A stretch of 64,000 nucleotides of DNA from Chiua virens (taxonomy: Eukaryota; Basidiomycota; Agaricomycetes; Boletales; Boletaceae). Below the pieces are notes generated by a model that was not told the origin of the DNA, did not search any database, and was given only the letters and a program-made list of their open reading frames with translations. Each line of letters starts with the position of its first letter. Position 1 is the first letter of the stretch. The translations under genes were made by a program, and so were the position numbers. Of the stretch, positions 433 to 57,898 are shown piece after piece. Location: assembly GCA_019787685.1 (NCBI GenBank), contig JAHNUO010000002.1, positions 310,001 to 374,000 of the forward strand, given 5' to 3'.

Positions 433-818
433 TACTCAAGACTGAAGGTCCAAACAGTATAGCAGCTGACAGTGCACCCTTGGAATGCAGGTTGTACTCT
501 TTACTGAGACCACAATACTAGTGTCCCCATTACAAAAATATATGTCTAATTTTGGAAACATTGTTTATACCATCATTGCAACGATCATATTAGCTACTTT
601 CTTCTCACTTTATATAATTCTTTACACAATCAAACAAGTCCAGGAAACCCAAACTCCCTTCACTTTAAAATCCAAACAAACAACTTTGAAATTCTTTTCA
701 GATTGTTCTCTCCTTATGAAGACTCATATGGCAACCAAGACAACAACAGTTGGGGAGCACCAGCACCAGACAACTGGAACTCAACAATGATGGATTACAT
801 AGGAGCAATTGTTACAAT
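433..818 (+). pseudogene. GyA-like element fragment: leader plus ORF1/ORF2 fusion
   Basis: The leader around 433-535 resembles the leaders of GyA-3 and GyA-4. An ORF from 485 starts with the ORF1 N-terminus (LFTETT-like) and, after about 19 codons, runs in frame into an ORF2 start at about 542. ORF2 shows its hydrophobic segment (residues about 8-28 of ORF2). After one frameshift near 700 the conserved tail LFSPYED...WGAPAPDNW follows. Most of ORF1 is missing, so this is a deletion derivative. The fragment ends where an LTR-K copy begins at 819. There is no gag beyond the first possible codons. Confidence 0.6.
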
Positions 819-5605: not shown

Positions 5606-6250
5606 CAGCTGATTGTTCTCTTAACTGAGCCCACTCTCCCAGTATCATCCTCCTACTTCCTTCTACCCTTTGAGGTCACTGGAGAGGAGATTCTTTTCAA
5701 TCAAGAGACAGATCTTGCCTGCATTGATGCCACTTTTATGGCTCAAGCAGTTGCTGCAGAGAATCTCAACCCAGATTACCACTCGCAGGAAGAGACTTTT
5801 CATGTCCTCCTTGAACAATTTCTTGGGAGCTTTTCCCCCTTACCGGATTATGAGTCCAAAACCAATAGTCAGTGCAGCAGCCTGAACTTATGCTATTCAA
5901 CAGAGGAACCAGAGGTTAAGCAGGAGATTGCCAAACCCTCTCTTATCAAACAGGAAGCATCACCCATTTCCATATCCCTATTCACAAGGGAAGTCTCATC
6001 CCCACTCCCAGAACTCATGCCAAGCAGAGCATCATCAGTAGAGTTGTTAGGAGACCCCAATAACTATATCCTACCGGCAGAATTAGCCAGGAGGTTAGCA
6101 GGTCCCATAAGGACAAATAGACAGAGAATAGCTGCAGCGAGAAGATAAGAAGTATCCTCTCGTATATGTCCATACTCATAGTATGACACCTTCAAGTTCC
6201 CATGTCTTAGACCTAGGAACACTCTCTGCATCCCTCCTGAATACCTTTAA
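5606..6250 (+). pseudogene. GyA-1 ORF1, acidic protein of unknown function
   Basis: The frame is open from about 5606 (V-L-L-T-E-P) to a stop at 6146-6148. The same frame then continues to the normal ORF1 end (RPRNTL...EYL, stop 6248-6250). A second stop interrupts the PYS.YD motif. Conserved blocks shared with the other copies are a D/E-rich N-terminal part with (E)DLNPD and EEFH-like motifs, SPEL.YPTEEPEVK, GDPN, and a basic C-terminal part ending RPRNTL. No known domain is recognised. No ATG is preserved at the expected start. The next ORF begins 8 nt after the stop. Confidence 0.65.
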
Positions 6251-6258
6251 GAATTTTC

Positions 6259-6452
6259 ATGTTCATTTACACAATTCCTGTCTCAATTCTTATCTGCACC
6301 TGCACTTTCCTATACATGATATACTAACTTGCTAAGAACCTCATTGACTACCAAAGGAGCCTGAGCTTCTGAATCCAGCTCAGCAAGTACACTGTCATAG
6401 TTGCACTCTATTCACCTTACAAGCAACAAGTACTGGAATATCAACCAGCTCC
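6259..6452 (+). pseudogene. GyA-1 ORF2, small membrane protein (first part)
   Basis: ATG at 6259 opens a short protein with one hydrophobic segment (residues about 3-21). The block NLIDYQRSLSF and an ALYSPYKQQ motif follow, nearly matching GyA-2 (SLIDYQRSLNF, ALYIPYEQQ). Two in-frame stops interrupt it. GyA-2 is inserted at 6453 with the duplication GCTCC, and the frame resumes at 20664. Its function is unknown; conservation between otherwise diverged copies argues for a real protein. Confidence 0.65.
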
Positions 6453-6882
6453 TGAAACAACCTAGAACGATACTAGACTGTAAAGTGTAGTGGTTAAGTG
6501 AAGAGGTGGTTCAGTCCAGCAAAGAGGCGAAAACTCCAAGAGAACTTTGTTAGAGCTCTCTGGCTTAGATTCATGGGGTTTATATACTACATGGATATCG
6601 GAGTTCTAATCTGAGTATGAACTACATAGATAAGTATGATGTATCCTATTGGATGATAAGGTGTGAATAGATATGAGTCATAGATAAGAGCATAGCCTTG
6701 CACTGCCGGTGATGAGTCAGTGATAAGGGAAATGAATAGATAAGGGCATGAGGTGATGGATGCTGTGTTATTGTGGCAGCCAATTGGATATGATCCTTTG
6801 GACAGCCTTGACATGAGGCATGTGTCTTTAGAATAGATTGAAGGTTAAATCCATTAAGGAAGAAAAAGTTGGTATCATAACA
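6453..6882 (-). repeat. GyA-2 3' LTR (430 bp)
   Basis: Read on the minus strand it runs TGTTATGATACC ... GGTTGTTTCA. A polypurine tract (ACGGGGGGTAG, minus strand, 6883-6893) abuts it. It differs from the 5' LTR by seven A/G transitions, a 1-bp indel and an extra 39 bp around 6680-6720 that lies between direct repeats of GAGTCA. Confidence 0.93.
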
Positions 6883-15628: not shown

Positions 15629-15667
15629 GGTAAAGGTTGGAAGTTAAGGAGCGAAGGCACGCCCGAA

Positions 15668-15795: not shown

Positions 15796-16364
15796 TGTCA
15801 TATCCCGTATATCTCATCGATCCAACTCCGAGATCTCCGGGCTTACTCCTTCATAACTCCGGTACGATCTCTCTCCGGACACAACTCCTGATCTCCGGAC
15901 TTCACTTAGAACCTTCTCGATTTCCTCTTGTCTCTTTTCGTACTAGTGTTACATTAGTAATAACCTGTGTCTCGCTTAACAGCACAGCTCCGGCCTCTGT
16001 ACATACCCGGCTCCACTCCGGTTACATACTTTCCCGATTTCCGTCTTACTCAGTTTCTTACCAACCCCGTTACTAATCTCCATTCTACTCCGAGTATATA
16101 AACTGTAGTACTCCGACTTTGTACCCTCAGTCTGAATATTAGTTTTACCTTCTATTCCCTCCGAACTCCATAAGACCTCGACGGTCTTAACTCTGCTCGA
16201 CTTCACTTCGGTGTTAAGTCTCACCTCCGACCTCCGTTCTCCGTTCCCCGAAATAAAGGACAGACTCGTGACAAGGGCGCACCACACACGGTGAAGCCAA
16301 GTCCCTCCGCAAGAATAACTCCGGAGTTCCGGAGTTCATACCCCGAGTAGACCCGGTCTTAACA
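15796..16364 (+). repeat. GyI 3' LTR
   Basis: This is the 569-bp partner of 8980-9548. TATATAAA is at 16095-16102. It keeps most CpG sites that the 5' copy has lost. The polypurine tract AAAGGGGGGATAC directly precedes it. Confidence 0.95.
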
Positions 16365-19199: not shown

Positions 19200-19469
19200 T
19201 TAGTTGTTGGATTCGTTATGCCAGTCTCCTGCATTTACTGGAGCATTCCAAGGACCGGCGGTATTGTTGATAATGGGTGGTGCCTGGTACTGGTAGTCCT
19301 GTTGTTCGTAGGGAATGTAAAGGGCAAAGATGATGGTGTTTTCGTTAAGTTGGATCCTGAAGTTCAGAGATCTCTGATAGTCGATGAGTGATTTGGAGAT
19401 GTGGTAGAGTATGAATAGAACGGTGAGGATGATTACAAAGATTGTTGCTAAGACAAGGTAAGCAAGCAT
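19200..19469 (-). CDS. GyA-2 ORF2, small single-pass membrane protein
   Basis: An intact 89-residue frame. Residues about 2-24 (LAYLVLATIFVIILTVLFILY) form one hydrophobic segment, followed by KSLIDYQRSLNF, ALYIPYEQQ, an Asn/Pro-rich stretch with IINN, and GDW near the end. Its ATG directly follows the ORF1 stop (TAG-ATG, gap 0). Its own stop is 6 nt before the gag ATG. The same ORF sits in the same place in GyA-1, GyA-3 and GyA-4. No homologue is recognised; likely a membrane-anchored accessory factor of the element, role unknown. Confidence 0.8.
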   Translation of the reverse strand: MLAYLVLATIFVIILTVLFILYHISKSLIDYQRSLNFRIQLNENTIIFALYIPYEQQDYQYQAPPIINNTAGPWNAPVNAGDWHNESNN

Positions 19470-20080
19470 CTATTGGATGTATCTCCTAGGGGTTCTAAGG
19501 GTGTTTTGAGGCCTTAGGTAAGGGAACTCGAAATTATTGTACTGTGAGTAAGGTCGGATGTGTATAGGTACTAAGTTTGCCTTGTAGCGTCTCAAAATCC
19601 TTCTCTGCTGTACAGCCGTTCTATTAGCTATTCTTTCAATCTCTCTGGGTGGGAGCCAATCATTTGGGTCTCCTAAACTTTCCTCTGATGGTTCTCTCAA
19701 AGGAGCTGGTGGGAAAGGTGATGGTTCTCATTTGGGAATGGGAGCGGGGAAATATTCTCACTTGACCTCTGGTTCCTCAGTTGGATACCGTAATTCCGGG
19801 CTGTCGGACCGGGTTGACTCTCTCTGACTGGAGTAGTCTGATAAGGCGCTAGCGTCACCTATGAAGTGGCCTAATAGGGCATGGAAGATTTCGGTGTCGG
19901 TGTGATCTTCGGGATCAAGGTCCTCAAGAGCGACGACTTTAGCAAGGTATGCTGTGTCAAGGATGTAGGGTTCTTCTTTGAGGCCGGGGAAAGCTTCTTG
20001 AGTTGCTACAACAATAGAGAGTGGGATAGACACTGATTGGGCAGGTCAGTTAAGGGCTCCTTTCTGGTCAAGGGTGCGCT
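19470..20080 (-). pseudogene. GyA-2 ORF1, acidic protein
   Basis: Read from about 20080 to the stop at 19470-19472. Legible blocks: DTAYLAKVVALEDLDPED, EIFHALLGHFIGD, SPELRYPTEEPEVK, a Pro-rich hinge, EESLGDPNDWLPPREIER, and the basic tail RRYKANLVP..IRPYSQY..F.LRPQNTLR. A stop near 19757 and a likely 1-nt deletion near 20055 (compared with GyA-3) break it. No known domain. No ATG is seen at the proposed start in this copy. Confidence 0.68.
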
Positions 20081-20253
20081 ATCTGTTTCTGCATATGCTA
20101 GACCTTGAGTCTTTTGCCAATCGGCTTATTGGGAACAGATGTTTCAACTACTTTTCAAGCTTGCGACTTACTAGGGTGCGGCTGTGTTATTTTGTAGTAG
20201 AGGCTACAACAAGGTCGGAAACTTGACAGTAGTTTGTCGACAGCAAAGATAAC

Positions 20254-22784: not shown

Positions 22785-23260
22785 ATGAAGAGGATTCTTT
22801 TGACCAGAAAGGAGCTCTTCACTGATGCTTCCCAATCAGTGTCTCACTCTACTCTATCCTTTGTTGTCGAAGGAGAGGAAGTTCTTTTTGATCACAAAGC
22901 AGACCCAGTCTTTTTAGATGCTGCTTTCCTTTCTGAAGCAGTTGTTGCTGAGGATCTCAACCCAGATTGCCATTTTCAGGAAGAGGTATTCCATACCCTC
23001 CTTGCATCTTACCTTGGAGCACAGTCTCCCTTATCAGATTTCGAGTCTGAAACCAATAGTCGGAGTGGCAGCCTGAACTTACACTATCCATCAGAGGAAC
23101 TGGAGATTAAGTTTGAGACTCTCCCGGCACTTATCCCTAAAGAGGAAGCACAACCCATCTTTATCCCTCTCACCTTACCTAAGAGAGAAGCATCGGAAGA
23201 ATCTTTAGGAGAATTAGCTAGGAGATTAGCAGGTCCAATTAGGACAAACAGATATAAGAA
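22785..23260 (+). pseudogene. GyA-3 ORF1 (interrupted)
   Basis: ATG 22785 opens MKRILLTRKELFTDASQSVS, then FLDAAFLSEAVVAEDLNPD, EEVFHTLLASYLGA, SLNLHYPSEELEIK and a LARRLAGPIRTNR block. CopB sequence begins at 23261. The remainder of ORF1 (PYSRYDNFEF.RLRPRNTL) resumes at about 37825 and stops at 37924-37926. Unknown function. Confidence 0.7.
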
Positions 23261-37933: not shown

Positions 37934-38179
37934 ATGTCCTGGGAACTCATAGCAATCTCAATTGTTATTGCCTGCACTCTTACCACTTATCTCTTCGCAT
38001 ATATCACTTTCTACCTTACCAATAAGGTACAAGAAACCAAATGCCCCCTTTACTTCACTATCAAAAGGAGGGACTACCCTTTTGCAATTACCTTCAGTCT
38101 CTTCTCACCTTATAAAGAGTATGGTCAACCCACAAACAACAACTGGGAAGCACCAGAATCCACTGTAGAAGGCTGGTGA
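37934..38179 (+). CDS. GyA-3 ORF2, small single-pass membrane protein
   Basis: An intact 81-residue frame in an otherwise ruined element. Residues about 5-28 (LIAISIVIACTLTTYLFAYI) are hydrophobic. Then NKVQET, a KRRDYPF basic-aromatic motif, TFSLFSPYKEYG, NNNWEAPE and a terminal Trp. The ATG lies 7 nt after the ORF1 stop (37924-37926), and its TGA is 3 nt before the gag ATG at 38183. It corresponds to 19200-19469 in GyA-2 and 43799-44043 in GyA-4. Confidence 0.8.
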   Translation: MSWELIAISIVIACTLTTYLFAYITFYLTNKVQETKCPLYFTIKRRDYPFAITFSLFSPYKEYGQPTNNNWEAPESTVEGW

Positions 38180-40045: not shown

Positions 40046-42547
40046 TAAAATGGGATCTCACATTCTCCAACCCCTTCCAAAGTATTATGAAAACTCTATT
40101 TCTTTAGATTTCAATTTCTCTTACTCATCTGATAAACCTCCCAAGCACAAGGATAAACTGCCAAAATCAAAAACAATAGACAATGAGAGTGTTGACAGTG
40201 CCTCTGTGGAGCGTGGTGAACACAATAGTTCTGTGCTTAATTCTGTCACAAAACCTATACCCGATGGGTCTTTCATTAGATCAACATCAATAGAATGAGA
40301 AATATCCTTACTGATATTGATATCCCCAGTAAACCACATTGGTTATGTTGGAGCAAAGGCACTCTTAGACAGTGGAGCAAATGCAATCTTCATACACAAG
40401 GATTACATCACTAAACACAAGCTCCCACGTCACACGCTACCATACCCTATACAAGTCTTTAATGTGGACAGAACCATGAATCAAGTGGGTTCTATTACTC
40501 ACACCACCCAAATCCTGATCAATTACAAAGGTCACAGGGAAATAGTGCATGCTGAATTACCAACCTTGGAAAGAATAATCTTATTCTCAGATTCACATGG
40601 TTAAAGCACCACAATCCCCATATAGACTGGAACACAGGATCAGTCATAATGTGGACATTCCCAGAATCATGTCACTCGCAAGACGAAGACAATTTCTTGG
40701 ATTCCATTATCACAGAAGAATCAAAATATGCAAACTCTATTGTGGAATCATGAATTTTTACTGCAAACATGGAAACTCCACCTTCTCCTCCTAAGGAACA
40801 CACTCTTGAAGAGATGGTCCCATGAGAATATATGAAATATGCTAAGGTCTTCAGAAAAGCCGAATCAGAAAGAATTCCAGTGTGCAAACTGTGGGATCAT
40901 GCAATAGATCTCAAAGACACATTCAAACCTAAGAAGGTTGCCTCATTCCTCTCTCTGTTACCGAACAAGAGGAAGTATCAGTGTTTATCGATGACCAATT
41001 AAAGAAAGATTATATCCGACCCTCTAAGTCCAAACAAACATCCCTGGTATTCTTCATCCCTAAAAAGGATGGAAAGAAGCACATGGTTCAGGACTACCAT
41101 TACCCAAATGAACACACAAGCAAAAATAATTATCCACTCTCCCTTATCTCCCAACTTGTGGATAAGCTGAAATCAGCTAAACTCTTTATGAAAATAGACT
41201 TACAGTGGGGACACAATAATGTACACATCAAAGAAGGTGACTGAATAGAAGGCAGCTTTTGTCTGTCACCACAGGTCTTTCAAACCCATCGTCATGTACT
41301 TTGGTCTATGCAATTCCCCTGCCACTTTCCAAACTATGATGAACAAAATCTTTGCCAATATGAATGGAGTTGTGGTTGTCTACATCGATGATCTCATGAT
41401 ATTCATAGATACCTGACAATTATGAAACACATGACAAGATCGTTCTGGAGGTTCTCAAATGCCTTGAAGAAAATGATCTATTCGTAAAACCTGAAAATGT
41501 CATTTCTGTATCAAAGAAGTTGATTTCCTCGGAATGATCGTGGGAACTGAAGGAATTAAAATGGATGACGAAAAGACCACAGCAGTAGCCAAATGGCCTG
41601 TCCTCTCTTCAGTCAAGCACGTTTGAAGCTTCCTCGGTCTTGTCAACTTCTACCAAAGATTCATTGAAGATTATGGTAAAATTGCATGCCCTTTACATGA
41701 TTTAACTAAAAAGGATCAATAATTCAAATGGACCTTCGCTTGTGACGAAGCATTCCACATGCTTAAAATGGCATTTATGACAGCCCCTATCCTTGCTTAT
41801 CCAGATCAGAACACAAAGTATCAGCTTAGAATACAATTCGTCTGATTTTGCCACAGGAGCAGTCTTATCCCTTGAGAAAGATGATGCATGGCACCCTGTC
41901 ACTTACAACAGCCACTCTATGACCCCAGAAGAACAGAACTACCCAATTGCTGACAAAGAAATGTTATCAGTCATCCATTCATTGGAATTATGGCGCCACT
42001 ATCTTGAAGGCTAAGCATGAATTTGAAATATGGAACATGTTATCACCAAAACCTTACATGGTTTATGACCTGCCAAGATCTTAACCAAAGGCAAGCGAGA
42101 TGGGTGCAATACCTGACGTTTCAACTTCACTTGGCACTACAAGGCAGGTGCAACTATGGGAAAAGCAGATGCTTTGAGCAGGAGAGAGGATCACATGATC
42201 GGTATTGAAGATGATAACAAGGGAATACTCCTTATGAATCCTGAGAAAATTAGATTAGCTATTACTCTCCTATACAATGGGGATGAAGTCCTTTCATCCA
42301 TTCAACATGAAACTATGAAACTATCCCCAAATGCCATGAAAATACCTCCTATCTATTGATTACTCAGTCAAGGATGCCTTCCTTAGAAAGGGGGATAAGA
42401 TCTTCATTCCAGATGAATTAAGAACCAAAGCTATCATGACATTTCATGACACACCTGAAGCCAGACATCCTGGTTATGACAAAACTCTCAAACTTTTATC
42501 TTAAAACTACATATGGCCTCAAATGGAGGAAAACATAAAAACATATG
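40031..42547 (+). pseudogene. GyA-3 pol, proximal part
   Basis: Protease ALLDSGANAIFIHKDY (near 40370), RT pieces (PKKDGKKHMVQDYHYPNEHT, VVVYIDDLMIF near 41390), RNase H (NSSDFATGAVLSLEKD, QNLTWFMTCQDL), then the integrase start up to KTYV at 42547, where GyA-4 is inserted (ATATG). Many stops and frameshifts. Confidence 0.85.
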
Positions 42548-42980
42548 TGTTACGATACCAACTTTTCCTCACTTCACAACTCCAACATTCGATCTATTCT
42601 AAAGATACATGCCTCATGTCAAGGCTGTCCAAAGGATCATATCCAATTGGCTGCCACAACAATACAGCATCCATCACCTCATGCCCTTATCTATTCATTT
42701 CCCTTATCACTGACTCATCATCAGGCAGTGCAAGGCTATGCTCTTATCTATGACTCATATCTATTCACACCTTATCATCCAATAGGATACATTATACTTA
42801 TCTACATAGTTCATACTCAGTTTAGAACTCTGATATCCATGTAGTATATAAACCCCATGAATGACAGCCAGAGAGCTCTAACAAAGTTCTCTTGGAGTTT
42901 TCGCCTCTTCACTGGACTGAACCCCCTCTTCACTCAATCACTACACTTTAAACAGTCTAGTCTTGTTCTAAGTTGTTTCA
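42548..42980 (+). repeat. GyA-4 5' LTR
   Basis: TGTTACGATACC ... GTTGTTTCA. TATATAAA at 42845-42852. About nine differences from the 3' LTR. Confidence 0.95.
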
Positions 42981-42993
42981 TTAGAACTTTGTT
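42880..42993 (+). other. GyA-4 self-priming pair
   Basis: AACAAAGTTCT at 42880-42890, 35 nt past the TATA box start, is exactly complementary to AGAACTTTGTT at 42983-42993, two bases after the LTR. Same 11-nt arrangement as in GyA-1 and GyA-2. Confidence 0.82.
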
Positions 42994-43208
42994 GCCTTTC
43001 TTCACCGTCGTTGACACTACTGTCAAGTCCCTCGACCTCGTCGTAGCCGTCTTACCACTAAACAAGGAACAAGCACCAACAGTAAGTCGCAACCTTTGAA
43101 TGGAAGACCTTTGTTAGCTTCAGATAAGCTGCTCGAGACTCAAGGTCCAAATAGTGCATCAGCTAACAAGCGCACCTGTCAGCTGACATTGTCCTCTTTA
43201 CTGAGACC

Positions 43209-43786
43209 ACAAAAAAATAGTGACTTCCCTCCCTCTCTCCATTGTCGCCGCCAGCCCAAGAAGCGTTCCCAGGTCTAGAAGACCAACCATACATACTTGA
43301 CGCCGCCTATCTCACTGAGGTAGTTGCCCTAGAGGATCTTGATCCCGAGGACAGGACAGACGTAGAGATATTCCATGCCTTGCTAGGCCATTTCATAGGA
43401 GACACAGCGTCCCTATTCCGACTACTCATCAGAAAGAGAGTCAACGCGGTCCTGACAGCCCGGAGCTTAGGTATCCAACCGAGGAAGTTGAGGTGAAGCG
43501 TGAATACTTTCCCGCACCCCTTCCCGAAAGAGAACCATCACCAAACCCACCTGCTCCATTACGAGAGCCCTCTGAGGAAAGTTTCGGAGACCCTAACGAT
43601 TGGCTCCCACCTCGAGAGATTGAAAGGAGAAACGCTAGGACAGACCTAGAAAGGAAAAGAGTACTTAGGCGCTACAAAGCTAACCTAGTCCCTTCCCGAA
43701 TCCGTCCATACTCACAGTATGATAACCCGAACTTCCCTTCCCTACGTCCTAGAAATACTCTCAGGATCCCTTCTCATTACCTCTAA
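43209..43786 (+). pseudogene. GyA-4 ORF1, acidic protein
   Basis: QEAFPGLEDQPYILDAAYL, TEVVALEDLDPEDRTD, EIFHALLGHFIGD, then a frameshift near 43415, then YFPAPLPEREPSP, EESFGDPNDWLPPREIE, RRYKANLVPSRIRPYSQYD and RPRNTLRIPSHYL with TAA at 43784-43786. About 180 residues when complete; acidic N-terminal half, Pro-rich middle, basic C-terminal half. No recognised domain. ORF2 starts 12 nt later. Confidence 0.72.
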
Positions 43787-43798
43787 ATAGAAACATTT

Positions 43799-44043
43799 AT
43801 GTCTTGGGAACTCGTTGCAATTGCACTTATCATCTCCTGCACTCTCACAACCTATTTTTTCGGCTACATTGCATTCTACCTTACAAACAAGGTACAAGAA
43901 TCTCAGCACCCCATCTACATTCTATCAAACAACGAGACTACCCTTTCGCAGTCACCTTCGGTCTTTTCTCACCCTACGAAGAATACGGAACAGCCACCGC
44001 TAATGCTTGGGGAGCACCAGAACCAACCGCTGACACTTGGTAA
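43799..44043 (+). pseudogene. GyA-4 ORF2, small membrane protein (one frameshift)
   Basis: MSWELVAIALIISCTLTTYF starts the hydrophobic segment (residues about 5-28). NKVQES follows, then a 1-nt shift near 43920 leads to QRDYPFAVTFGLFSPYEEYG, WGAPEPTADTW and TAA 44041-44043. The gag ATG at 44046 follows after two bases. Apart from the shift it matches GyA-3 ORF2 almost residue for residue at both ends. Confidence 0.75.
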
Positions 44044-44045
44044 AC

Positions 44046-45199
44046 ATGTCACAACAAGATATCACCGATGCCACAAGGGCAATGAACAATCAAAATGAAA
44101 AAGACTTAGATCGGCTGCAAGCAGCCATATTTATTATTTCACACATGTCAGGAGCCATTGCGGCCCTACAAAATAAAACCCTATCCACGGGAAAGGTTGA
44201 AATCTTCGCCTGACCCTGGATCCTATGACGGAGAACCAGCCTGATTCGAAGAGTGGTGGGCTAAAATCAAAGGATGGATAGATGTAAACCAAAGTACTAT
44301 CACACCTGGCTCGTACACCTACCGTACTTGCCGTCTTATCTTGCCTAAAAGGAAAACGTGCTTCGCAGTTTGCCGAAACTCGCTTAGCACAAGGGACCAA
44401 CCTCACATGGGGATAACTGGTCATTGATGTAGAAGAGATGTTCTGCCAGAACAACAAGGTTGACTGGGCTCGCACAGAGCTAGAACATCTCGAACAAGGA
44501 AACATGTGGGTCGAAGACTTCCTAATTCAATGGGAAGCACTATGGCACCAAGCCAAAATAGACCCTTCACATGCCATAAGGCTCCTCGAGGCAAACACAG
44601 CACGAGGATTAATACACCAAATCTTCAGGGATAGAACAAGAATCACCCTGCAAGAACCCATGTGGAATGATCCACTCGCACCCAAATACGAGTCGGATCG
44701 CAACAAGGCCGTAACGGCATACCTTGCCTTGATAAGACAGGCAGGAAATTCTTTGGAGCAACTCCAATATGTCTGCAGAGAAAGGACCAAAAGGAAGGAC
44801 CCTAACGCGATGGACATTGGCTCCACATCACGATATGAAGTTGATGAAGATGGCTGGTTTACCGGCAAAGAAGTCAGGGCAGTTGGTCAAAAGAAGGTCA
44901 ACCCCAATAACAAGTGCTACAACTGTGGGAACACAGGGCACGTTCCAAAGGAGTGCCCAAAACCCAAAGTGCAGTGCCCTGACTGCAAGTACTACTGCCG
45001 GCAACCACAAAGCCACATGTGGGAAATCTCGAAAAGCGAGATCCACTTCACAACAAAAAGAAGCCCCTAAAGCTTCGACTTCTTCAGTCCCGGATAAGGA
45101 CCCCTTTGCGGCATCCGAGGAATGAACCCTGAAGAAGTACAAGCATATTATTATGACAAATATGAAACCGAAAAGAAGGGAAAAGGCAAGGCAAACTGA
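44046..45199 (+). pseudogene. GyA-4 gag
   Basis: MSQQDITDATRAMNNQNEKD, then KVEIFA with a 1-nt insertion, SYDGE..FEEWWAKIKGWID, then an open stretch 44438-45070: NNKVDWARTELEHLEQG, EANTARGLIHQIFRD and the knuckle CYNCGNTGHVPKEC, with CPDCKYYC after it. One more shift near 45040 leads to the C-terminal QAYYYDKYE and the stop TGA 45197-45199. Confidence 0.87.
45178..45184 (+). promoter_or_regulatory. GyA-4 -1 frameshift heptamer G GGA AAA
   Basis: Codons AAG GGA AAA GGC hold G GGA AAA. Pol, in the -1 frame, is open from here through LSKLGSHV. The gag stop follows at 45197-45199. Confidence 0.62.
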
Positions 45200-45444
45200 G
45201 TAAACTGGGATCTCACGTTCGCACTACCCTTCCAAAGTACTATGAAAACTCTGTTTCTCTAAAGTTTGATTTCCAATACTTGGAAAAACCTCCTAAGCAA
45301 GAGGATAAACTACCTAAATCACCAAAAACAACAGAAAATGAAAGCGTTGACAGCGTCTCTGCGGAGTGCAGCAGACACGATAGTTCCATGCTTAATTCTG
45401 TCCCAAAACAAATACCCGATGGGTCTTTCATTAGATCTACATTG

Positions 45445-46178
45445 TGTTACAATTTCTTTCTTTCATCGTTCTTGTACTTCTTCACTACACTCGATACCTA
45501 GGTATCTTCGTACGTTCATCCGTACGCTTCCCTTTTCACACTTGTATCTCCGCACCGGCATTACCCGAGTGCTTACGTTCTTCTATTCTCGTCATCATCC
45601 GATGGCATTGCACTTACTCATTCGATTCTCGTCATCATCCGATGGCTTCGCATTTGTCATTTCATCTTCGTCATCGTCCGTTGCCTTCGCATCGTACGAT
45701 TCCCCTTTTTGATTACTACGCACTGCTTTTGGCCTTTCGCCCTTCCGCTCTTCTGGCCTTCCCCTTTTAGTTACTTGGTCCGTGCGTAGTTCTCGTAGTA
45801 TAAATACCCCGCAGCGATACTCCTGTAGCCTCAGTCTTGATCTCCGCAATACTAGCTGAGTATCACTGCTCCACTCGGAACCTTCCTTGTGACCACTCGA
45901 CCAGGGACTTCTCTCGTCGTCCCTTGACCCAACACTCGGACTCATCGCAGTCAACACTCGACACTTGACCGTCCCGCGGGTATAGATTCCCAACCGGACA
46001 ACTCTCAGCAACGCCTGAGTTTTCACTCGTCTCTCTGGTAGCAATCCGCTGACCAGAACTCCTTGTTCGACTCTTCAGCGCACCACGTATCAAGTGGTGG
46101 TTGTTCGAGTTATCACAGCCACTTGATTACTTGGCGCTTTTGCGGCTACGTTAGGTCCTACCCGGAACTATCGTAACA
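45445..46178 (+). repeat. Solo LTR of GyC
   Basis: 734 bp, TGTTACAATTTC ... ACTATCGTAACA, flanked by CATTG on both sides (45440-45444, 46179-46183). It matches the GyC LTRs in reverse. TATAAATA at 45799-45806, R-start box AGTCTTGATCT at 45833-45843. Intact duplication with one LTR indicates LTR-LTR recombination that removed a full GyC. Confidence 0.95.
45585..45703. repeat. Three imperfect 40-bp tandem repeats in the GyC LTR
   Basis: Units starting ATTCTCGTCATCATCCGATG recur at 45585, 45625 and (diverged, ATCTTCGTCATCGTCCGTTG) 45664. The same repeats are in both LTRs of the full GyC, in the U3 side upstream of the TATA box, where enhancer-like repeats are common. Confidence 0.7.
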
Positions 46179-49395: not shown

Positions 49396-50128
49396 TGTTA
49401 CGATAGTTCCGGGTTGGACCTAACGTAGCCGCAAAAGCGCCAAGTAGTCAAGTGGCTGCGATAACTCGAACAACCACCACTTGATACGTGGTGCGCTGAA
49501 GAGTCGAACAAGGAGTTCTGGTCAGCGGATTGCTACCAGAGAGACGAGTGAAGACTCAGGCGTTGCTGAGAGTTGTCCGGTTGGGAATCTATACCCGAGG
49601 GACGGTCAAGTGTCGAGTGTTGACTACGATGAGTCCGAGTGTTGGGTCAAGGGACAACGAGAGAAGTCCCTGGTCGAGTGGTCACAAGGAAGGTTCCGAG
49701 TGGAGCAGTGATACTCAGCTAGTATTGCGGAGATCAAGACTAAGGCTACAGGAGTATCGCTGCGGGGTATTTATACTACGAGAACTACGCACGGACCAAG
49801 TAACTAAAAGGGGAAGGCCAGAAGAGTGGAAGGGCGAAAGGCCAAAAGGAGTGCATAGTAATCAAAAAGGGAATCGTACGATGCGAAGGCAACGGACGAT
49901 GACGAAGATGAAATGACAAATGCGAAGCCATCGGATGATGATGAGAATCGAATGAGTAAGTGCGATGCCATCGGATGATGACGAGAATAGAAGAACGTAA
50001 GCACTCGGGTAATGCCGGTGCGGAGATACAAGTGTGAAAAGGGAAGCGTACGGATGAACGTACGAAGATACCTAGGTATCGAGTGTAGTGAAGAAGTACA
50101 AGAACGATGAAAGAAAGAAATTGTAACA
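49396..50128 (-). repeat. GyC 3' LTR
   Basis: Minus strand TGTTACAATTTC ... CGTAACA. Preceded (minus strand) by the polypurine tract CCGGGGGTAA at 50129-50138. Differs from the 5' LTR at three sites near 49827, 49962 and 50006. Confidence 0.96.
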
Positions 50129-50260
50129 TTACCCCCGGAGTACGATCAAAGCACCAAGCGAAGATCATCTCTAGAAATCGAACGCATCACGGACAGGACT
50201 GCCGGTGATATTGGCGTACCCCTCGTCGTCGATGGGGTCATCACATGGGGAGACCGAGCG

Positions 50261-53200
50261 TCAATCAGGAGACGCGGAACGTTGTCGCGCATGGCGGCGG
50301 GCTCGTTGAGGTGGGGGTACAGGGAGTACGGAGCGGCGGTTGTGGCGCGACGAAGAAGACGAGTTCGTCGAAGAGGACGACGTGGAGGGGATGGCAGGGG
50401 GAGGCGAGCGTCGGGTCCAAGTGTTTCCGGCGGCCACGGGAGTAAGCCGGTTGGCAAGGGGGATGCGAGCGCGTACCCGAGGAGGTCGTCCAGGGCAGCG
50501 GGATTGGATATGTCCAGGGGCCCAGGTAAGACAGATGGGGCACTGGTACATGGGGCATTCAACCCGGATGTGGCCGAGTTTCCTGCATTCGAAGCAGGCC
50601 TCGTGGAAGCGAGGGTGATCGTCGGGGAGGGATATCTGACCGGTCCGAAACATCAGTTCGGCCTCGGCGCGGTTGCAGGCGAGCATCTCCTCTTCTGTGA
50701 AGGGAGCGGAGGACGCAGACGGGGTAGAAGAGGGGCGAGATGGGGGAGCCATATGGCGGGCGAGATCCGCTTGGTAGCGGTGGAGATCTTCCAAAAATTC
50801 ACCCATCTGCATTTGATGGAGGGTATGCTCGATGTAGGCGCGAATCCGGTCGTGGATCTGCCCGGTAACCGCAGAGAGGAGGTGGGAATGACGATCTCGA
50901 CCAAGTAGGTCGGACTGGACGAAGGTGAGGCGCTCGCACTGGAGGTAGGCGAGGTAGAGGGCATTGAGGGGCGAGTTCAAGTCAAGGTGATGCTCGATGG
51001 GGAAGGCCATCGCGGGGTCTAGGATAAGTTCGCGCATGCGACGAAAGTACTCTGGGGAGGAGGAGGAGGAACGGATAGTATGTGAATGGTAAGGCAGGTC
51101 TACTGCCTGGAGAGGAGAACGAACGCGACTAGGGCGCTCAGAAGGAACAGGCCATTGAGAAGGAGCTCCCCATCCTGCGGAGGCAACTGCTGAAATAGCA
51201 GGAGAAGGGGGTCGGGTGGACTCTGTGAGGGAGGATTCGGTGGAGAGGGTGGTTGCATCGGAGGCGGGGGTCGCCGGTGGGGGAAGAGGTAGGTGAGGGA
51301 TAGACGCGGTGGGGGTGAAGACAGGGACCGAGTGGATAATTTCGTTTTCGAAGTCGGGGGTCGAGCAGGAGCGGTAGGTCATTATCGCTTTAACGGAGAC
51401 TGGTGGAGGTGGTCGAAGTGGGGAGCGAGGTGGTCGTGGTGGTGGACTGGAGGGGAAGTCCTTCGGATGGGTCCGCTTATAAGCGTCGACCGTTTCCTTG
51501 GCGTTCCCTAAGTTGGACTTGGGTTCCCAAGAGTCATCGGCGGCGGAATATCCTTTCCATCGGATCAGGAACTTGCGGTTGAGCGGGTTCCGCGTGTGGC
51601 GTAAGATCCGTTCAATTTCATATTCCTCTTCTCCAGCGATAAGGTCAGGTGGTGGTTTCGGGAAGTTCGCGCCATAGGTTTCTGTTTCGCGATAGGGCGA
51701 TAACAGAGAAGCGTGGAAGACTGGATGGATCTTCCAGGTCTTAGGGAGGCGGAGTCGGTAGGTGAGCGGAGAAAGGACCTCCGTGATGGAGAAGGGTCCT
51801 TCTCGGCGAGATGCGAGTTTTGGGGAGATGAGCTCCCGTTTCAGGTTTCGGGCTTCGAGCCAAACTTGGTCTCCTTTAGCAAACGGTTTGAATTTGCGGA
51901 AGGATCGGGCTTTCATGGCTTGGCGGGCGAGTTCGTGTGCCGTGAGGGCTTCGTCTCGGGCTGCAGATAAGACGTCAAGGCGTTCCTTGACGGCGGGGAG
52001 ATTGGTATCGGCGATGATCGTGGGTAGGGGATGGGGTTCGTATCCCATCATCAAGAAGAACGGCGACTTGCCGGTGATGGAGTGAGGGCGGTGGTTGTGC
52101 GCGAATTCGGCCATAGGGAGTAGATCGGCCCATTTCTCCGGGTTGTTTTGGCAATACATGTGGAGATAGGTTTCTACTTCTTGGTTGACTCGCTCTGTCT
52201 CACCATCGGATTGGGGATGGTACGCGGTGGACAGGGAAAGGCGGTATCCGATAAGCCGGGAGAGTTCTTTTGCGAAAGCAGAAGCAAACTGCGGGCCACG
52301 GTCGGAGATGATCTTGTCATAGAGGCCGAATCGGGTGTAGACTTTGTGGAAAAAGAGGCAGGCAATACCTGCGGAGTCGGCGGTTTTCACTGTGGGGCAA
52401 AGAATCACCCCCTTTGTAAGGCCGTGGTCGACCACGACCATGACAGAATCGTAGCCCTCCGCCGATGTGGGTAAATCCGTGATGAGATCCACGGACACGT
52501 TCTGGAAGGGGCAGGAGCACGCGGAGGGAATTGGGGACAAAGGAGGGGTGGTCGGGTGGGTGTTGACCTTGTGTTGCTGGCAAGCAGCGCAACCGGAGAC
52601 GTAAGAGCGGACGAAGGATGCAAGACCCGGCCACCAGAATTCTGCAGCGACGAGTTGGCGAGTTTTTAAGTAGCCGGGGTGTCCGGCGGAGTGAGAATCA
52701 TGGTGTCGGGCGACAATTTGTTGTCGGAGTTCGAGGTTCGGAGGAACATAGACGCGACCCTGGTAAGTCAGGACGCCGGCGTCGTATTTCCAATCTGAGA
52801 GGCGGGCACGGAAGGATGAGGGGAGACCACCGTCGAGGGCGTTGAGGGTGTCCAAGACCAACGGGTCGTTGGCGGACGACTTGGCAATCAAAGACTGCAG
52901 GTCCAAGGTTACAAGGTTGACGAATACGTCATCCGGGAGGAGTGTGACGTTTTCGTTGTCGCAGTCGGAGGTGATATGATCCGGTCGGCGTGAGAGTGCG
53001 TCCGGACCGTCGAGGAGTCTCCCGGGGACATGGGAAAAGGTAAGGTCGAAGTCGGCGAGGTCAAGGAGCCAACGAGCTTGTCGGCGGTTCAAGTTTTGGG
53101 GTTGACGGAAGTATGTCAAGTTCTTGTGGTCGGAGAAGACCGTGACAGGGTGTGCGCTTCCACGGAGGTGGTGGCGCCAAGCCTTGAGGGATCGGATGAC

Positions 53201-55083
53201 CGCGAGGAGCTCACGATCATAGATGTCGTAGTTTCTCTCCGCCGCGTTGAACGACTGAGAGAGGTAAGAACAAGGTTTCCAGTCGCCGTTTGTGTCGGTC
53301 TGGAGGAGGACACCGCCGGTTGCGTACTTTGAAGCGTCTGTGGCGATGGCGAAGGGTCGAGACGTGTCAGGAAACCGGAGTACCGGATCCGTAGTAAAGG
53401 CCTTTTTAAGGCGTTCGAAGGCATCGACCTGGGGGGGTCCCCAAGTCCAAGGAGCATCTTTCTTGGTGAGATCGACGAGGGGGCGAGCGATGGTCGAGTA
53501 GTTGGGGATGAACCGACGGTAGAAGTTGGCGAAGCCCATGAACGATCGGACGTCCTTGAGCTTGGTGGGGGTAGGCCAGTCGGCAATACCGGCTACCTTG
53601 ACTGGGTCCATGGCAAGTTCACCTGGTCGGGCGATCATGCCAAGATATTCTACTTCGGTGGTGGCGAAGTGGCATTTTTCGAGTTTCAAGTGAAGGTCGA
53701 GTTCCTTCATGCGGGCGAGAACGCGTTTGGTGCGCTCCGTGTGGGTGGCCTCGTCTTCCGAGAAGATGAGGAGATCGTCCATGTAAATGACGAGCCATCC
53801 TTCGGCGATCATGTCGTGGAAAGAGTCGTTCATGAAACGTTGGAACGTCACTGGAGAGTTGGTCAGTCCAAAGAACATGACCGTGGGTTCGAAGAGGCCG
53901 CGGTGGGTGATAAAGGCGGCTTTCCATTGATGTCCGTCCTTGATACGAACGTTGTTGTAACCCCATCGGACGTCGAACTTGGTGAACAGTTTGGCGTCTT
54001 TCAGCTTGTCGACAAGGTCGGAGATAAGAGGAAGGGGGTAGGCGTCGCGAACGGTGTGTTCGTTGACATAGCGGTAGTCTTGGCAAGGATGGAGTTTGCC
54101 ATCCTTCTTTTTGACGAAGAAGAAGGGGGACGCTTGGGGGGAGTTGGAAGGGCGGATCTTGCCATTGGCAAGGTGTTCGTCGATGAAGTCGTCGGTGGCC
54201 TTGCGCTCGTCTGGGGACAAGGGGTAGACCTTTCCGACCTTGGGTACGAAGGTGTCTTTCAGATGGATTTCGTGGTCACAGGATCTCGAGGGAGGCATCT
54301 GATTGAAGGGTTCCTTCGCGAATACGGATTCGAATTCCGAGTATTCCGAAGGGAGGGTGATCTTGGGTTTCTTCGCTGCGGCTGCAAGGGCGGTAGCGTT
54401 GGTGAGCTTCTCGGGTTGAGTGGTTCGAACGAAGCGCTGTCCAGCACGCATTACGCAGTTGACAGAGTGTTGCACGGATTGGGTCGTGAAACGATGCCCA
54501 GTTTCGGTGCCGAGGTAGTCGTAGAGTTTGCCGTCCCAGATGGGATCGACATCGAGGTGGCGAACGGGACGGATAGGTGGTGGGTGAGCGAGTCTGGCGG
54601 AGTGTTTGGGTTCGTCTGTGGTGATGGGGGGTAGGTCGGGTTCTGGGGTGGATACGGTGATGGTCTTAGCTACCCAATCGATGATCGGATTGGTTGCTTT
54701 AAGCCAGGGGAGGCCGAGGATGACGTTTTCAGAACCACAGTGGATGACGTGGAATTTGATGCGTTGGAGCACTCCGCCAAGAGCGATCCGGAGGGTGGTG
54801 GTGAATTTTATGTCGCCGTTCTTGTTCATGGTGGAATCTACGTTCCTAACCGGGATTGGTTTCGGAAGGCGATCCTTCGGGAATTTGTGTTTCTGGATGA
54901 AGTTCCAGTCGATGCAATTGATCCCGGCCCCAGAGTCAATGAGGGCGCGGGTGTCGACGTCTTGAGAAGTAGCCGTAACGTTCAATCTAACAGGGATTTG
55001 CATAGATTGGGACGAAAGCTCAGCTACAAGTACATGGGTACGTGAATGGGAAGATACCGGCGTCGAATCGGTCTTCCTCCTTA
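50261..55083 (-). CDS. GyC Pol with zinc-knuckle C-terminal extension
   Basis: The pol frame is open from the gag stop region (55083) to TGA near 50261; the first Met is 55003. Order: protease (ALIDSGAGINCIDW, about residue 20), RT (CQDYRYVNEHT, FFGLTNSPVTFQ, VIYMDDLLIF), RNase H (ATDASKYATGGVL, DRELLAVIRSLKAW, SDHKNL), integrase (HHCC with CAACQQHK; VDLITDLP, SDRGPQFAS, GETERVNQ), KGDQVWLEARNL, and chromodomain (FLIRWKGYSAADDSWEP, near residue 1150). About 400 more residues follow: Pro-rich linker, helical block, CFECRKLGHIRVEC (CCHC), a CPIC...GHIQSRC variant and an Arg/Ser-rich basic tail. Catalytic residues are all present. Confidence 0.95.
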
Positions 55084-55986
55084 AAAACCCGTGACCGGAG
55101 TGGTCACCTTGTTGACGCTCATGGCGTCCTCGTCGTCTTCTTCTACTTCAACTAGGGCAGGGATAGGTTCAGGTTTTGGGGCAGTTTTCCTGACCTTCTT
55201 GGAAGAGGACGACGGCGGGTTTTTGTTCGAGAATGCCGTGCAGGCGGACGTCTGGTGTCCGGGTTTGCGACAGCGGAAGCAAAGTTTTTGTTCGAAGCAT
55301 CGCTTTCGCTCAGCTTCGGTCATCTTTGGGACATAGATGGCGTCTACGTCCATAGCATCGGGGTCTCGCTCCTTCTTGCGAGGGGTCTGGTCGTGGTAGA
55401 CGACAGCAGCGGCGGGTTTCTTGTTTCGACGGGCAATTTCGTCGGCGCGTTCCCATTGGGTTTTGAAATGGATGGCTTGGGTATACCACTTATCGATCGT
55501 GGTAGGGACCGTATCCATCCCTTGGATGCGCCTCATGAGGGAAGGTGGGAGCCCGGCGGCGAAGAAGTTGATAAGGACGGAGTCAGAGCCGGCGAGCCCT
55601 GCGGTGACGACCTTGTTGCGGAAGGAGGAGATATACGAGGGGACGTCCTCGTTCTTGGTGGAGCGGGTAGTGGATAACCAGGCGATGGCGTCGCCTTTGG
55701 TGTCGTGGTGTTCGAAGTCCTTTCGGAACTCCGTCTGCCAGTCGGTCCAGGTCCCAAAAGATCTAGCGGTGATGGACTTGGCGCGGAACGTGTCGGCCCA
55801 AGTCAGAGCAGATCCTTCGGTCATGAAGGAGAGGGCGAAAGCCACTCGTTTGTTTTCGGTGTTGTACACATCCTCGTTGACGAAGAGGTAGGTGGCGACG
55901 TCGTTGAGCCAGGGTATGGCGCGGTCGTAGGAGCCATTGAAGGCGGCGGGTTTTCCGAGACGAAGTTCAACAGCCTTGTTGGACAT
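55081..55986 (-). CDS. GyC Gag
   Basis: 301 residues from ATG 55984-55986. The helical gag core (FNGSYDRAIPWLNDVATYL, GSALTWADTFRAKS, FRKDFEHHDTKGDA) is followed by KTQWERADEIARR, a Lys-rich hinge, the CCHC knuckle CFRCRKPGHQTSAC and an acidic tail ending TGF-stop. The same frame is open upstream for about 100 codons to a TGA near 56288 but has no ATG; that part is acidic and Pro-rich like the start of GyI gag, so initiation at a near-cognate codon is possible. Pol follows in the -1 frame. Confidence 0.93.
   Translation of the reverse strand: MSNKAVELRLGKPAAFNGSYDRAIPWLNDVATYLFVNEDVYNTENKRVAFALSFMTEGSALTWADTFRAKSITARSFGTWTDWQTEFRKDFEHHDTKGDAIAWLSTTRSTKNEDVPSYISSFRNKVVTAGLAGSDSVLINFFAAGLPPSLMRRIQGMDTVPTTIDKWYTQAIHFKTQWERADEIARRNKKPAAAVVYHDQTPRKKERDPDAMDVDAIYVPKMTEAERKRCFEQKLCFRCRKPGHQTSACTAFSNKNPPSSSSKKVRKTAPKPEPIPALVEVEEDDEDAMSVNKVTTPVTGF
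55084..55090 (-). promoter_or_regulatory. GyC -1 frameshift heptamer G GGU UUU
   Basis: Gag codons ACG GGT TTT TAA give G GGT TTT directly before the stop; slipping back reads GGG TTT TTA AGG into the open pol frame. Canonical X XXY YYZ form. Confidence 0.78.
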
Positions 55987-56381
55987 GTTGGTCGAGGAGG
56001 TGGGTACGGGGTTGGTCAGGGGTTGTCCTAGCGTTGGGACGACAGAGGGTCTAGGATTCCGGATAGATGGTGGTCCGGGGTTCGGCCTTCGTGGGGTCGT
56101 TGGGGACGCGAAGGTGGCAAGTGCAGGGAGGTCAAGTGTTTGGTGAAGGCGGTCAGCTAGTTGCTGGGTTTCGTCTTCCGAGTCAAGGTGTTCGACGTTG
56201 ATGTCGAAGTCTGCTTCCTGGGGTTCAGAAAGTGGGGTCGAGGGTTCAGGGTTTTCGTCAGATAGATCCGACGACGGAGTGTGGGAGGCTCAGAGGTTCC
56301 AAGCGAGGTTCAAGGGTGGACAGGTGGGAGGTCGTCCGGCAATGGTGGGCAGCTAGCTGCACGGTGGCAGGCTGTATAGCT

Positions 56382-56740
56382 AGTCTTGATCTTATGTTAC
56401 GATAGTTCCGGGTTGGACCTAACGTAGCCGCAAAAGCGCCAAGTAGTCAAGTGGCTGCGATAACTCGAACAACCACCACTTGATACGTGGTGCGCTGAAG
56501 AGTCGAACAAGGAGTTCTGGTCAGCGGATTGCTACCAGAGAGACGAGTGAAGACTCAGGCGTTGCTGAGAGTTGTCCGGTTGGGAATCTATACCCGAGGG
56601 ACGGTCAAGTGTCGAGTGTTGACTACGATGAGTCCGAGTGTTGGGTCAAGGGACAACGAGAGAAGTCCCTGGTCGAGTGGTCACAAGGAAGGTTCCGAGT
56701 GGAGCAGTGATACTCAGCTAGTATTGCGGAGATCAAGACT
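56382..56740 (-). other. GyC self-priming pair
   Basis: On the minus strand the LTR box AGTCTTGATCT (56730-56740), about 34 nt after TATAAATA (56767-56774), is exactly complementary to AGATCAAGACT (56382-56392) that starts 2 nt after the 5' LTR. Match length 11 nt. Confidence 0.82.
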
Positions 56741-57127
56741 AAGGCTACAGGAGTATCGCTGCGGGGTATTTATACTACGAGAACTACGCACGGACCAAGT
56801 AACTAAAAGGGGAAGGCCAGAAGAGCGGAAGGGCGAAAGGCCAAAAGGAGTGCATAGTAATCAAAAAGGGAATCGTACGATGCGAAGGCAACGGACGATG
56901 ACGAAGATGAAATGACAAATGCGAAGCCATCGGATGATGATGAGAATCGAATGAGTAAGTGCAATGCCATCGGATGATGACGAGAATAGAAGAACGTAAG
57001 CACTTGGGTAATGCCGGTGCGGAGATACAAGTGTGAAAAGGGAAGCGTACGGATGAACGTACGAAGATACCTAGGTATCGAGTGTAGTGAAGAAGTACAA
57101 GAACGATGAAAGAAAGAAATTGTAACA
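56395..57127 (-). repeat. GyC 5' LTR
   Basis: 733 bp, partner of 49396-50128; TATA box, R start and three imperfect 40-bp U3 repeats are present. Confidence 0.96.
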
Positions 57128-57132: not shown

Positions 57133-57520
57133 CGGAGAAGACCAAGAAGAAGAATTCGAAGCAGACTATATCGTTGATTCCCGAATGAAGGGACGTCGCT
57201 TAGAATACCTCATACACTGGAAAGGCTATGTTGATGATGAAAGAACTTGGGAACCACTAAAGAATCTGAAGAACGCTCCAGATCTCATATCCAATTTCCA
57301 TGAAGCACATCCAGATGCCCCAAGAAAACTAAAAGTCACACAAACTGAATTTAATTCCATGTTCCGAACATATGACGATAAAACTAAAAACGAAGATGAG
57401 GATGGTTTCCATTGTCTCAATTATGAAACAGATCATCCGGAGTTTGATCAACAGAAGGGGGATAGTGTTACGATACCAACTTTTCCTCACTTCACAACTC
57501 CAACATTCGATCTATTCTAA
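57133..57520 (+). CDS. GyA-4 pol, chromodomain end
   Basis: Continuation of pol after GyC: an acidic E-D-Q-E-E-E-F stretch, then the chromodomain LEYLIHWKGYVDDERTWEP and a helix, then a tail DHPEFDQQKGDSVTIPTF. The polypurine tract is part of the reading frame, and the stop (57518-57520) lies 55 bp inside the 3' LTR. GyA-2 and GyA-3 stop at the same LTR position. The chromodomain would target integration to modified histones. Confidence 0.9.
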
Positions 57521-57898
57521 AGATACATGCCTCATGTCAAGGCTGTCCAAAGGATCATATTCGATTGGCTGCCACAATAATACAGCATCCATCACCTCAT
57601 GCCCTTATCTATTCATTTCCCTTATCACTGACTCATCATCGGCAGTGCAAGGCTATGCTCTTATCTATGACTCATATCTATTCACACCTTATCATCCAAT
57701 AGGATACATTATACTTATCTACGTAGTTCATACTCAGTTTAGAACTCCGATATCCATGTAGTATATAAACCCCATGAATGACAGCCAGAGAGCTCTAACA
57801 AAGTTCTCTTGGAGTTTTCAGCCTCTTCACTGGACTGAACCCCCTCTTCACTCAACCACTACACTTTAAACAGTCTAGTCTTGTTCTAGGTTGTTTCA
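57466..57898 (+). repeat. GyA-4 3' LTR
   Basis: 433 bp, preceded by the tract AGAAGGGGGATAG. TATATAAA and the self-primer box are conserved. Confidence 0.95.

Follow-up and report, generated by a model that had tools for sequence, protein, structure and literature searches.

In the 64,000-nucleotide (nt) stretch of the Chiua virens genome analyzed here (contig JAHNUO010000002.1, positions 310,001 to 374,000, or C2:310001-374000 in our numbering; hereafter the window), the Ty3/Gypsy elements GyA-1 to GyA-4 belong to a family carrying two additional open reading frames (ORFs), ORF1 and ORF2, between the 5′ leader and gag. Hydrophobin domains (18 places) and DUF6533 domains (28 places) occur in this genome and in none of 14 control genomes, which marks it as fungal and probably basidiomycete. 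Searches of the whole genome (48.3 Mb, 136 contigs) showed that ORF1 and ORF2 are protein genes under selection, with a constraint about equal to that of gag. The reading that we favor, with a probability of about 0.6, is that of a self-priming chromovirus with the order long terminal repeat (LTR), intron, ORF1, ORF2, gag and pol, in which splicing would create the ORF1 start codon, leaky scanning would give access to the following genes, ORF1 would be regulatory and ORF2 would serve as a membrane anchor.

Two genes between the leader and gag

The GyA elements form a large and recently active family of self-priming, chromovirus-type Ty3/Gypsy elements. In the copy L027, Pfam identified Retrotrans_gag, zf-CCHC, RVP_2, RVT_1, RT_RNaseH, rve and Chromo (3.9e-15) in gag and pol, corresponding to the chromovirus features of a Gag with zinc knuckle, the order protease (PR), reverse transcriptase (RT), RNase H (RH) and integrase (INT), and a C-terminal chromodomain. 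ORF2 of the type present in GyA-2 (type B) was found at 59 places in the genome, 32 of which have an open frame of exactly 89 codons without a stop, while ORF2 of the GyA-4 type (type A) and ORF1 each gave at least 150 matches (the best 150 of 176 and of 177 candidates scored, respectively). Among 20 B-type loci extracted for element structure, 13 retain a full-length LTR pair of 399-435 nt, and the 98.5-100% identity within these pairs indicates recent insertion. Five B-type copies are laid out as LTR, leader, ORF1, ORF2, gag and pol, with a gag of about 390-395 amino acids (aa); their pol, in the -1 frame, has about 1290-1300 codons in four copies and one stop in L010.

ORF2 accompanies the family closely. 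From 133 rows of protease-region matches, 103 were typed, shorter or partial pieces being excluded, and 96 of the 103 have an ORF2 match on the same strand 0.8-4.5 kb upstream. The first-pass annotation of the window had named absence from intact members as what would speak against ORF2; it is present in 33 of the 34 copies whose pol is open over at least 1200 aa, lying 1617-1862 nt ahead of the query start (the count includes one outgroup element, its ORF2′ added from a separate outgroup search). The lone exception, at C52:38837, has no ORF1 or ORF2 match in the extracted piece (L053) and carries a stop in its protease region.

The ratio of nonsynonymous to synonymous divergence (dN/dS, mean dN over mean dS) was calculated from open copies only: 36 ORF1 (at least 165 codons), 26 ORF2 of type A, 19 ORF2 of type B, 14 gag and 10 RT segments of pol. 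It amounted to 0.09 for ORF1, 0.13 for ORF2 A, 0.06 for ORF2 B, 0.11 for gag and 0.03 for RT, so that the comparison proposed with the initial description, in which values near 1 would have spoken against a gene, came out far below 1. Variable sites fall mainly at third codon positions (33/8/70 in ORF2 B), and the ratios are, if anything, overestimates, because inserted copies presumably decay neutrally. The possibility that the frames are open by chance or are functionless relics, to which the broken state of several window copies might point, is already contradicted by these ratios and the third-position bias, by the 33 of 34 long-pol copies and by the gene plan kept in the outgroup, and we give it next to no credence.

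Hydropathy and charge were scored in 50 open ORF2 proteins (26 A, 19 B, 4 of a third subgroup and 1 of the outgroup). By simple hydropathy all 50 contain a single hydrophobic segment of 19 residues starting at residue 1-8, in keeping with the first description of ORF2 as a single-pass membrane protein, and none has a second segment over a mean of 0.83. The flank on the N-terminal side is neutral or acidic and that on the C-terminal side basic (net +1 to +3 in 25 residues), so that by the positive-inside rule the C-terminus would be cytosolic. Since only 0-7 residues precede the segment, there is no space for an amphipathic motif in an ectodomain; in the sequences inspected the protein begins with MSWE, MLAY or MIYI, and the myristoylation motif MGxxxS/T is absent from them. 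Types A and B are strongly diverged (26-34% identity to L027) and share the tail pattern F-x-L-[FY]-x-P-Y, W-x-A-P and a late Trp; the tail motifs reported initially are kept across 17 aligned sequences. The lack of likeness to known domains also held, since no Pfam match of ORF1 or ORF2 was better than E 0.012, and none of ORF2 better than E 0.058. A retroviral Env identity was ruled out for ORF2, which lies upstream of gag, encodes 81-141 aa and has no Pfam match beyond that weak level, the Env gene being located downstream of pol. A read-through fusion of ORF1 and ORF2 was likewise rejected: in the B copies inspected the ORF1 stop is immediately followed by an ATG in the same frame, yet type A shows a gap of variable length, so that this layout is not conserved.

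Elements of an outgroup, with 62% identity to the main family in the protease-to-RT segment, keep the same gene plan with ORFs that are not recognizable as related. In L051 and L052 an ORF1′ of 209 codons without Met is followed by an ORF2′ of 141 codons, which starts MIYILTFLVVFF and contains GWGPAEDIAAW in its tail, and then by gag. Profile comparison did not detect homology between outgroup and main family (probability 21% for ORF2 and 0.9% for ORF1), and the W-G-x-A/P tail common to both ORF2 proteins was seen by eye only.

The leader, the predicted intron and the start codons

ORF1 comprises about 187 residues past its first codon (about 188 aa in total). As initially described, it is acidic and then basic and precedes ORF2; in L027 the net charge is acidic up to residue 140 and basic beyond, with a peak at 141-160. 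The first-pass annotation overlooked, however, that ORF1 has no ATG and most likely gains its start by splicing. Met is absent from all 36 open ORF1s, where the 2.5% rate of gag would predict about 4.6 in each. Leaders were scored in 50 distinct main copies, with an acceptor expression that demanded AGTG, and in 48 of them a GTAAGT donor lies 131-141 nt from an AG|TG acceptor, both at the expected distance; an ACTGA branch-like site lies in the predicted intron of the rows displayed. In L004, whose ORF1-ORF2 distance is larger, both donor and acceptor are present further upstream, and GyA-3 is the sole main copy with neither. The acceptor was also found, by reading, in 7 of 8 third-subgroup pieces, and a rightly placed donor in 5 of the 8. 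Of 53 copies (48 main and 5 third-subgroup copies), 52 have A as the exon base ahead of GTAAGT, the five bases before it being variable; the single exception is L012, whose exon does not align. L060 was excluded from the 53, its ORF1 start being replaced by other sequence with an unrelated-looking GTAAGT after G. Excision of the intron would yield A|TG with ORF1 in frame downstream, and an ORF1 start codon assembled by splicing is thus strongly indicated.

Two nucleotides past the LTR end, AGAACTTTGTT forms an 11-nt complement of the LTR's AACAAAGTTCT in 26 of 28 main copies and in all five third-subgroup copies scored. Since the primer-binding site (PBS) complements this self-primer, as in Tf1 and Tj1, the RNA 5′ end was placed at AACAAAGTTCT, and the PBS is thus complementary to the element's own predicted RNA 5′ end, as in Tf1/sushi-like self-priming. 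In the outgroup the pair is AGGACAAGACT with AGTCTTGTCCT, a compensating change kept in 3/3 copies. The compensating self-primer/PBS change between the two lineages lies at L052:781-791 and its PBS, and within the main family L008 shows a paired one-base change in self-primer and PBS.

The leader that follows is poor in ATG. From the predicted 5′ end to the donor there is none in any of the 27 main copies with a complete exon 1, and over the about 900 nt to the ORF2 AUG these copies have on average 1.4 where base composition predicts 11.4, with none at all in 9 of the 27. In the outgroup, the 987 nt that separate self-primer and ORF2′ AUG contain no ATG (2/2 copies), nor is there one between the ORF2′ and gag AUGs; in the decayed outgroup copy L062, which has lost the ORF2′ start, the first ATG past the self-primer, at 938 nt, is that of gag. 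Dinucleotide shuffles of 49 rows (GyA-4 being entered both as L001 and again as the window copy) gave a depletion smaller than that against base composition, with 0.14 ATG against 1.44 in the intron, 1.20 against 3.22 in ORF1 and 0.76 against 2.13 from ORF2 to gag, while gag ATGs exceed the shuffle expectation. The intron is ATG-free in 42 of the 49 rows, suggesting that intron-containing RNA is translated. Within the coding regions, 45 ORF2s have no Met after the start, and out-of-frame ATGs fall below the expectation with amino acids fixed and gag codon usage (0.75 against 2.8 in ORF1; 0.50 against 2.8 and 0.53 against 2.2 in the two ORF2 types). The AUG contexts are graded: position -3 is C in 42 of 48 ORF1 starts predicted for spliced RNA, T in 50 of 50 ORF2 starts (weak) and A in 42 of 45 gag starts (strong), the gag AUG lying 2-17 nt past the ORF2 stop in copies with an 81- or 89-codon ORF2. 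Taken with established knowledge of scanning, these contexts suggest a layout for leaky scanning, with ORF2 first and weak and gag next and strong.

The type of leader is tied to the type of gag in 48 of 48 copies (leader i with MDYH in 25, leader ii with MSGY in 16 or MSQQ in 7), and the ORF2 types, which lie between the two, are found with both. The leader must have switched at least twice on the ORF2 A tree and once on the ORF2 B tree. This linkage hints at a Gag that would recognize its own packaging signals in the leader or intron, or at a few historical exchanges.

The mechanism that we propose combines these features. Splicing out the leader intron would join A|TG into the ORF1 start codon, so that ORF1, with an acidic N-terminal and an Arg-rich C-terminal part, could be translated from spliced RNA only and serve in the nucleus as a regulator of the export, stability or packaging of the unspliced genomic RNA, in the manner of retroviral Rev or of CERV in Cer1. 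On intron-retaining RNA, ribosomes would scan an ATG-poor 0.9 kb, and those leaking past the weak ORF2 AUG would start at the strong one of gag. ORF2 would be an N-out/C-in anchor whose cytosolic tail (F-x-L-[FY]-x-P-Y ... W-x-A-P ... W) may hold Gag or particles at the membrane.

Several observations weigh against this mechanism. Intron-less junctions, expected from retrocopied spliced RNA, were not found genome-wide with two 18-nt patterns at up to 2 mismatches; two junction matches with 2 mismatches were rejected as element copies, one lacking an element 5′ match and the other having just a 28-nt match. The missing intron-less copies fit exclusion of spliced RNA from particles and a lack of splicing equally. 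Three broken rows (L006, L012 and L017) do contain ATGs in phase with ORF1, and the unspliced RNA offers an in-frame GTG, which makes a GUG start possible. At least one ATG precedes the ORF2 AUG in 18 of 27 main copies; of 21 rows with a partial exon 1, 19 are ATG-free, L042 having three ATGs and L012 two. The four third-subgroup copies scored have 3-8 ATGs before the ORF2 AUG, with one in exon 1 in two of the four, which counts against a strict rule and yet fits decay, because several of these copies also carry stops. The use of each gene's own codon usage lowers the expected out-of-frame ATGs to 2.07 (ORF1), 2.09 (ORF2 A) and 0.92 (ORF2 B). In the outgroup the candidate intron is 61-62 nt long, from ATTGATCA|GTGGGT (GTGAGG in L062) to ATTGCTAG|TG, and would again yield A|TG, a junction that is only a candidate there given the weak donors; a better-looking GTATGT donor was rejected, as it lies upstream of a TATA-like box, the self-primer and the predicted RNA 5′ end. 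Because of the relatedness among copies, counts per copy are not independent. Lastly, the roles of ORF1 and ORF2 are proposed from composition and analogy, and splicing and the localization of the products are predictions from sequence.

An extended form of the mechanism would follow the logic of complex retroviruses, with the splice-assembled regulatory gene licensing export, packaging and translation of intron-containing RNA and the membrane protein serving transfer between mycelial cells or nuclei; we give it a low probability. It is doubtful, too, that splicing of the intron is constitutive, with every protein made from spliced RNA by scanning that leaks past a weak ORF1 AUG and with unspliced RNA serving as the genome only. 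The ORF1 context is indeed also weak, with its C at -3, and ORF1 is ATG-poor, so that scanning through it on spliced RNA could occur; an ATG-depleted intron, however, would be required only where RNA that retains it is translated.

The module might instead work as proposed for the MDG1 pair of insects, with ORF2 as a protein like the fusion-associated small transmembrane (FAST) proteins, passing particles directly between hyphae, nuclei or spores, and ORF1 as a nuclear early protein, which we consider rather unlikely. Fungal cells are walled and their hyphae fuse unaided, which counts against such a transfer. The ectodomain space and the MGxxxS/T motif are missing as described above, and the basic patch of ORF2 is modest; the charge does predict N-out/C-in, with a basic and then an aromatic stretch beyond the membrane segment. 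The order of two short ORFs before gag is the same, and the 81-89 aa of ORF2 compare with 63-107 aa in insects (excerpt of PMC11952523).

Similarly improbable in our view is translation of ORF1 from unspliced RNA, starting at the in-frame GUG, which is conserved, or at some other near-cognate codon, the intron-like motifs being packaging or RNA-structure signals. The always in-frame GTG left by AG|TG, the missing intron-less copies and the leader-gag linkage, as a packaging signal would give, agree with it; it leaves unexplained both the nearly invariant A before GTAAGT and the fact that two very different leaders share GTAAGT, an ACTGA branch-like site and YAG, spaced as in an intron.

Copies of the module in the window

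ORF2-like sequence was confirmed at all five places first named in the window. The frame is open in GyA-2 (89 codons, 19200..19469, minus strand) and in GyA-3 (81 codons, 37934..38179, plus strand), as had been reported; that of GyA-1 has two stops and that of GyA-4 is frameshifted. That the two frames stay open amid decay of gag and pol is correct as an observation, but with frames this short it says little on its own; the evidence from the rest of the genome is far stronger.

In GyA-4 (plus strand), the self-primer in the LTR, marking the predicted RNA 5′ end, lies at 42880..42890 and is an 11-nt complement of the PBS at 42983..42993, which by this pairing begins 2 nt past the LTR end (the LTR ends at 42980). 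From its sequence motifs, the predicted leader intron spans 43082..43220, with an A|GTAAGT donor, a TTTACTGAG branch-like site and a TAG|TG acceptor; its removal would produce the ORF1 AUG. The ORF1 region from codon 2 to the stop (43223..43786) is broken and was matched in two pieces (43248-43424 and 43430-43783). The frameshifted ORF2 (43799..44043) has its start and hydrophobic half in the frame of 43799 and its conserved tail, ending ..LFSPYEEYGTATANAWGAPEPTADTW with the stop at 44041-44043, in the frame of 43804; owing to this frameshift, the mechanical ORF of 99 codons at 43799-44098 is not the family protein. The decayed gag begins 2 nt past the ORF2 stop (44046..45199, by reading and a zinc knuckle match). 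The likely LTR pair of GyA-4, at 42543-42980 and 57462-57898, is 97.7% identical over 439 nt despite the broken ORF1, ORF2 and gag. The copy is broken between gag and pol, at about 45280-46178, by roughly 740 nt, as deduced from a shift in repeat spacing from 5155 to about 5895; by eye the insert resembles a solo LTR from a different element. On the minus strand, a very young Gypsy element (49396-56915), with LTR stretches 100% identical over the 300 nt compared, is seemingly inserted in the 3′ part of GyA-4, and its pol ORF (50261-55003) extends about 400 residues beyond the chromodomain, with a weak zinc-knuckle match there (E 0.011).

The leader of GyA-2 (minus strand) has a predicted intron at 20033..20171 (A|GTAAGT ... 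CAG|TG, from sequence motifs), followed by an ORF1 with two stops at 19473..20030, found by ORF1 search. GyA-3 shows neither the leader intron motifs at the expected distance nor an ORF1 match among the matches listed. In GyA-1 (plus strand), the searches matched an ORF1 with two stops (5720..6247) and the N-terminal two thirds of ORF2, in which the two stops mentioned above lie (6259..6453). The fragment at 433..818 (plus strand) was recognized by eye as a leader end and an ORF2 relative (ATG at 542) with its tail in a different frame. The ORF1 search revealed an additional piece with 45% identity at 22851..23213 (plus strand), absent from the initial description, and the protease search a further copy of the family protease region starting at the right end of the window (63959 onward, C2:373959). 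A separate Gypsy element on the plus strand (8980-16095), with LTR stretches 98% identical over 300 nt, gag at 9745-10677 and pol from 10870, has less than 470 nt between LTR stretch and gag, scant room for extra ORFs.

Relation to known elements

No homologue of ORF1 or ORF2 was found at E 0.01 among 5.8 billion proteins, a collection whose share of fungal genomes is not established, so that a restriction to the lineage is not shown; gag as a control gave 44 matches in the same collection (41 ena, 2 jgi and 1 nr) with up to 43% identity. The gag relative with 43% identity, P0005, is filed in nr as bacterial (Oceanobacillus profundus), perhaps through eukaryotic contamination of the assembly. 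IMG/VR held no relatives of ORF1, ORF2, gag or RT, and Rfam gave nothing at gathering score in L025, L027 and L052. Titles and abstract openings of the open-license literature yielded no fungal element with a pre-gag module and no LTR element with a split start. Accessory ORFs before gag are already known, while the fungal host, the placement in a chromovirus and the predicted split start codon are new. Such a module may in part have been overlooked, because a gene without ATG and one of 81 codons easily miss annotation. The predicted split start and the ATG-poor leader open the control of spliced and unspliced RNA in simple LTR elements to RNA sequencing.

To our knowledge, Tf1 encodes Gag, PR, RT and integrase (IN) only. 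Tf1 and Tj1 share with GyA a fungal host and a PBS complementary to the RNA 5′ end, predicted here, whereas Tj1 is depicted with Gag, PR, RT and IN only (excerpt of PMC4600332). A survey of fungal chromoviruses likewise covers chromodomain Gypsy elements including those of basidiomycetes, but in the parts of it consulted most full-length elements consist of a single ORF or of gag and pol; one figure legend refers to an extra ORF without a known function, its position falling outside those parts (PMC2864245).

Cer1 of Caenorhabditis elegans resembles GyA in having an extra LTR-element protein made from spliced RNA, as predicted here for ORF1, CERV being required for export of unspliced genomic RNA; it differs in that CERV has 517 aa and a 5-exon mRNA with the first exons in the gag frame, whereas ORF1 has about 188 aa, lies upstream of gag and would have a split start (excerpt of PMC10309623). 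Nackednaviruses also have two small ORFs before the capsid gene, smORF1 and smORF2, the second with an N-out/C-in segment, but they are hepadnavirus-like viruses of fish, and the comparison is by description only (excerpt of PMC11952523).

The closest counterpart is the MDG1 group of Drosophila (412, Stalker2 and mdg1), in which sORF1 and a transmembrane sORF2 lie upstream of gag; sORF1 is subnuclear, sORF2 is found at the membrane with capsids, and pre-gag accessory genes with a membrane protein are linked to cell-to-cell transmission in insects (excerpt of PMC11952523). The first-pass annotation knew of no membrane-anchored accessory protein in an LTR retrotransposon; given the analogous order sORF1-sORF2-gag, the idea of a pre-gag membrane protein is not wholly new (PMC11952523). 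Compared by description and not by sequence, both modules have two short constrained ORFs before gag, the second encoding a small protein with a basic patch that is single-pass and N-out/C-in in MDG1 and predicted to be so in the fungus, and the nuclear sORF1 has a parallel in the Arg-rich stretch of the fungal ORF1 (PMC11952523). In the excerpted text, however, the MDG1 elements show no evidence of splicing and a short transcript stops after sORF1, where the fungal element has a predicted intron and split start; sORF2 has an ectodomain, with a myristoylation motif in 4 of 6, against almost no ectodomain and no such motif in the fungal sequences inspected (PMC11952523). Lacking both features, the fungal ORF2 is not classed as FAST-like, though it may work alike. 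An analogous and unrelated-looking pair in a fungus suggests that the pre-gag arrangement arose repeatedly or is old and overlooked.

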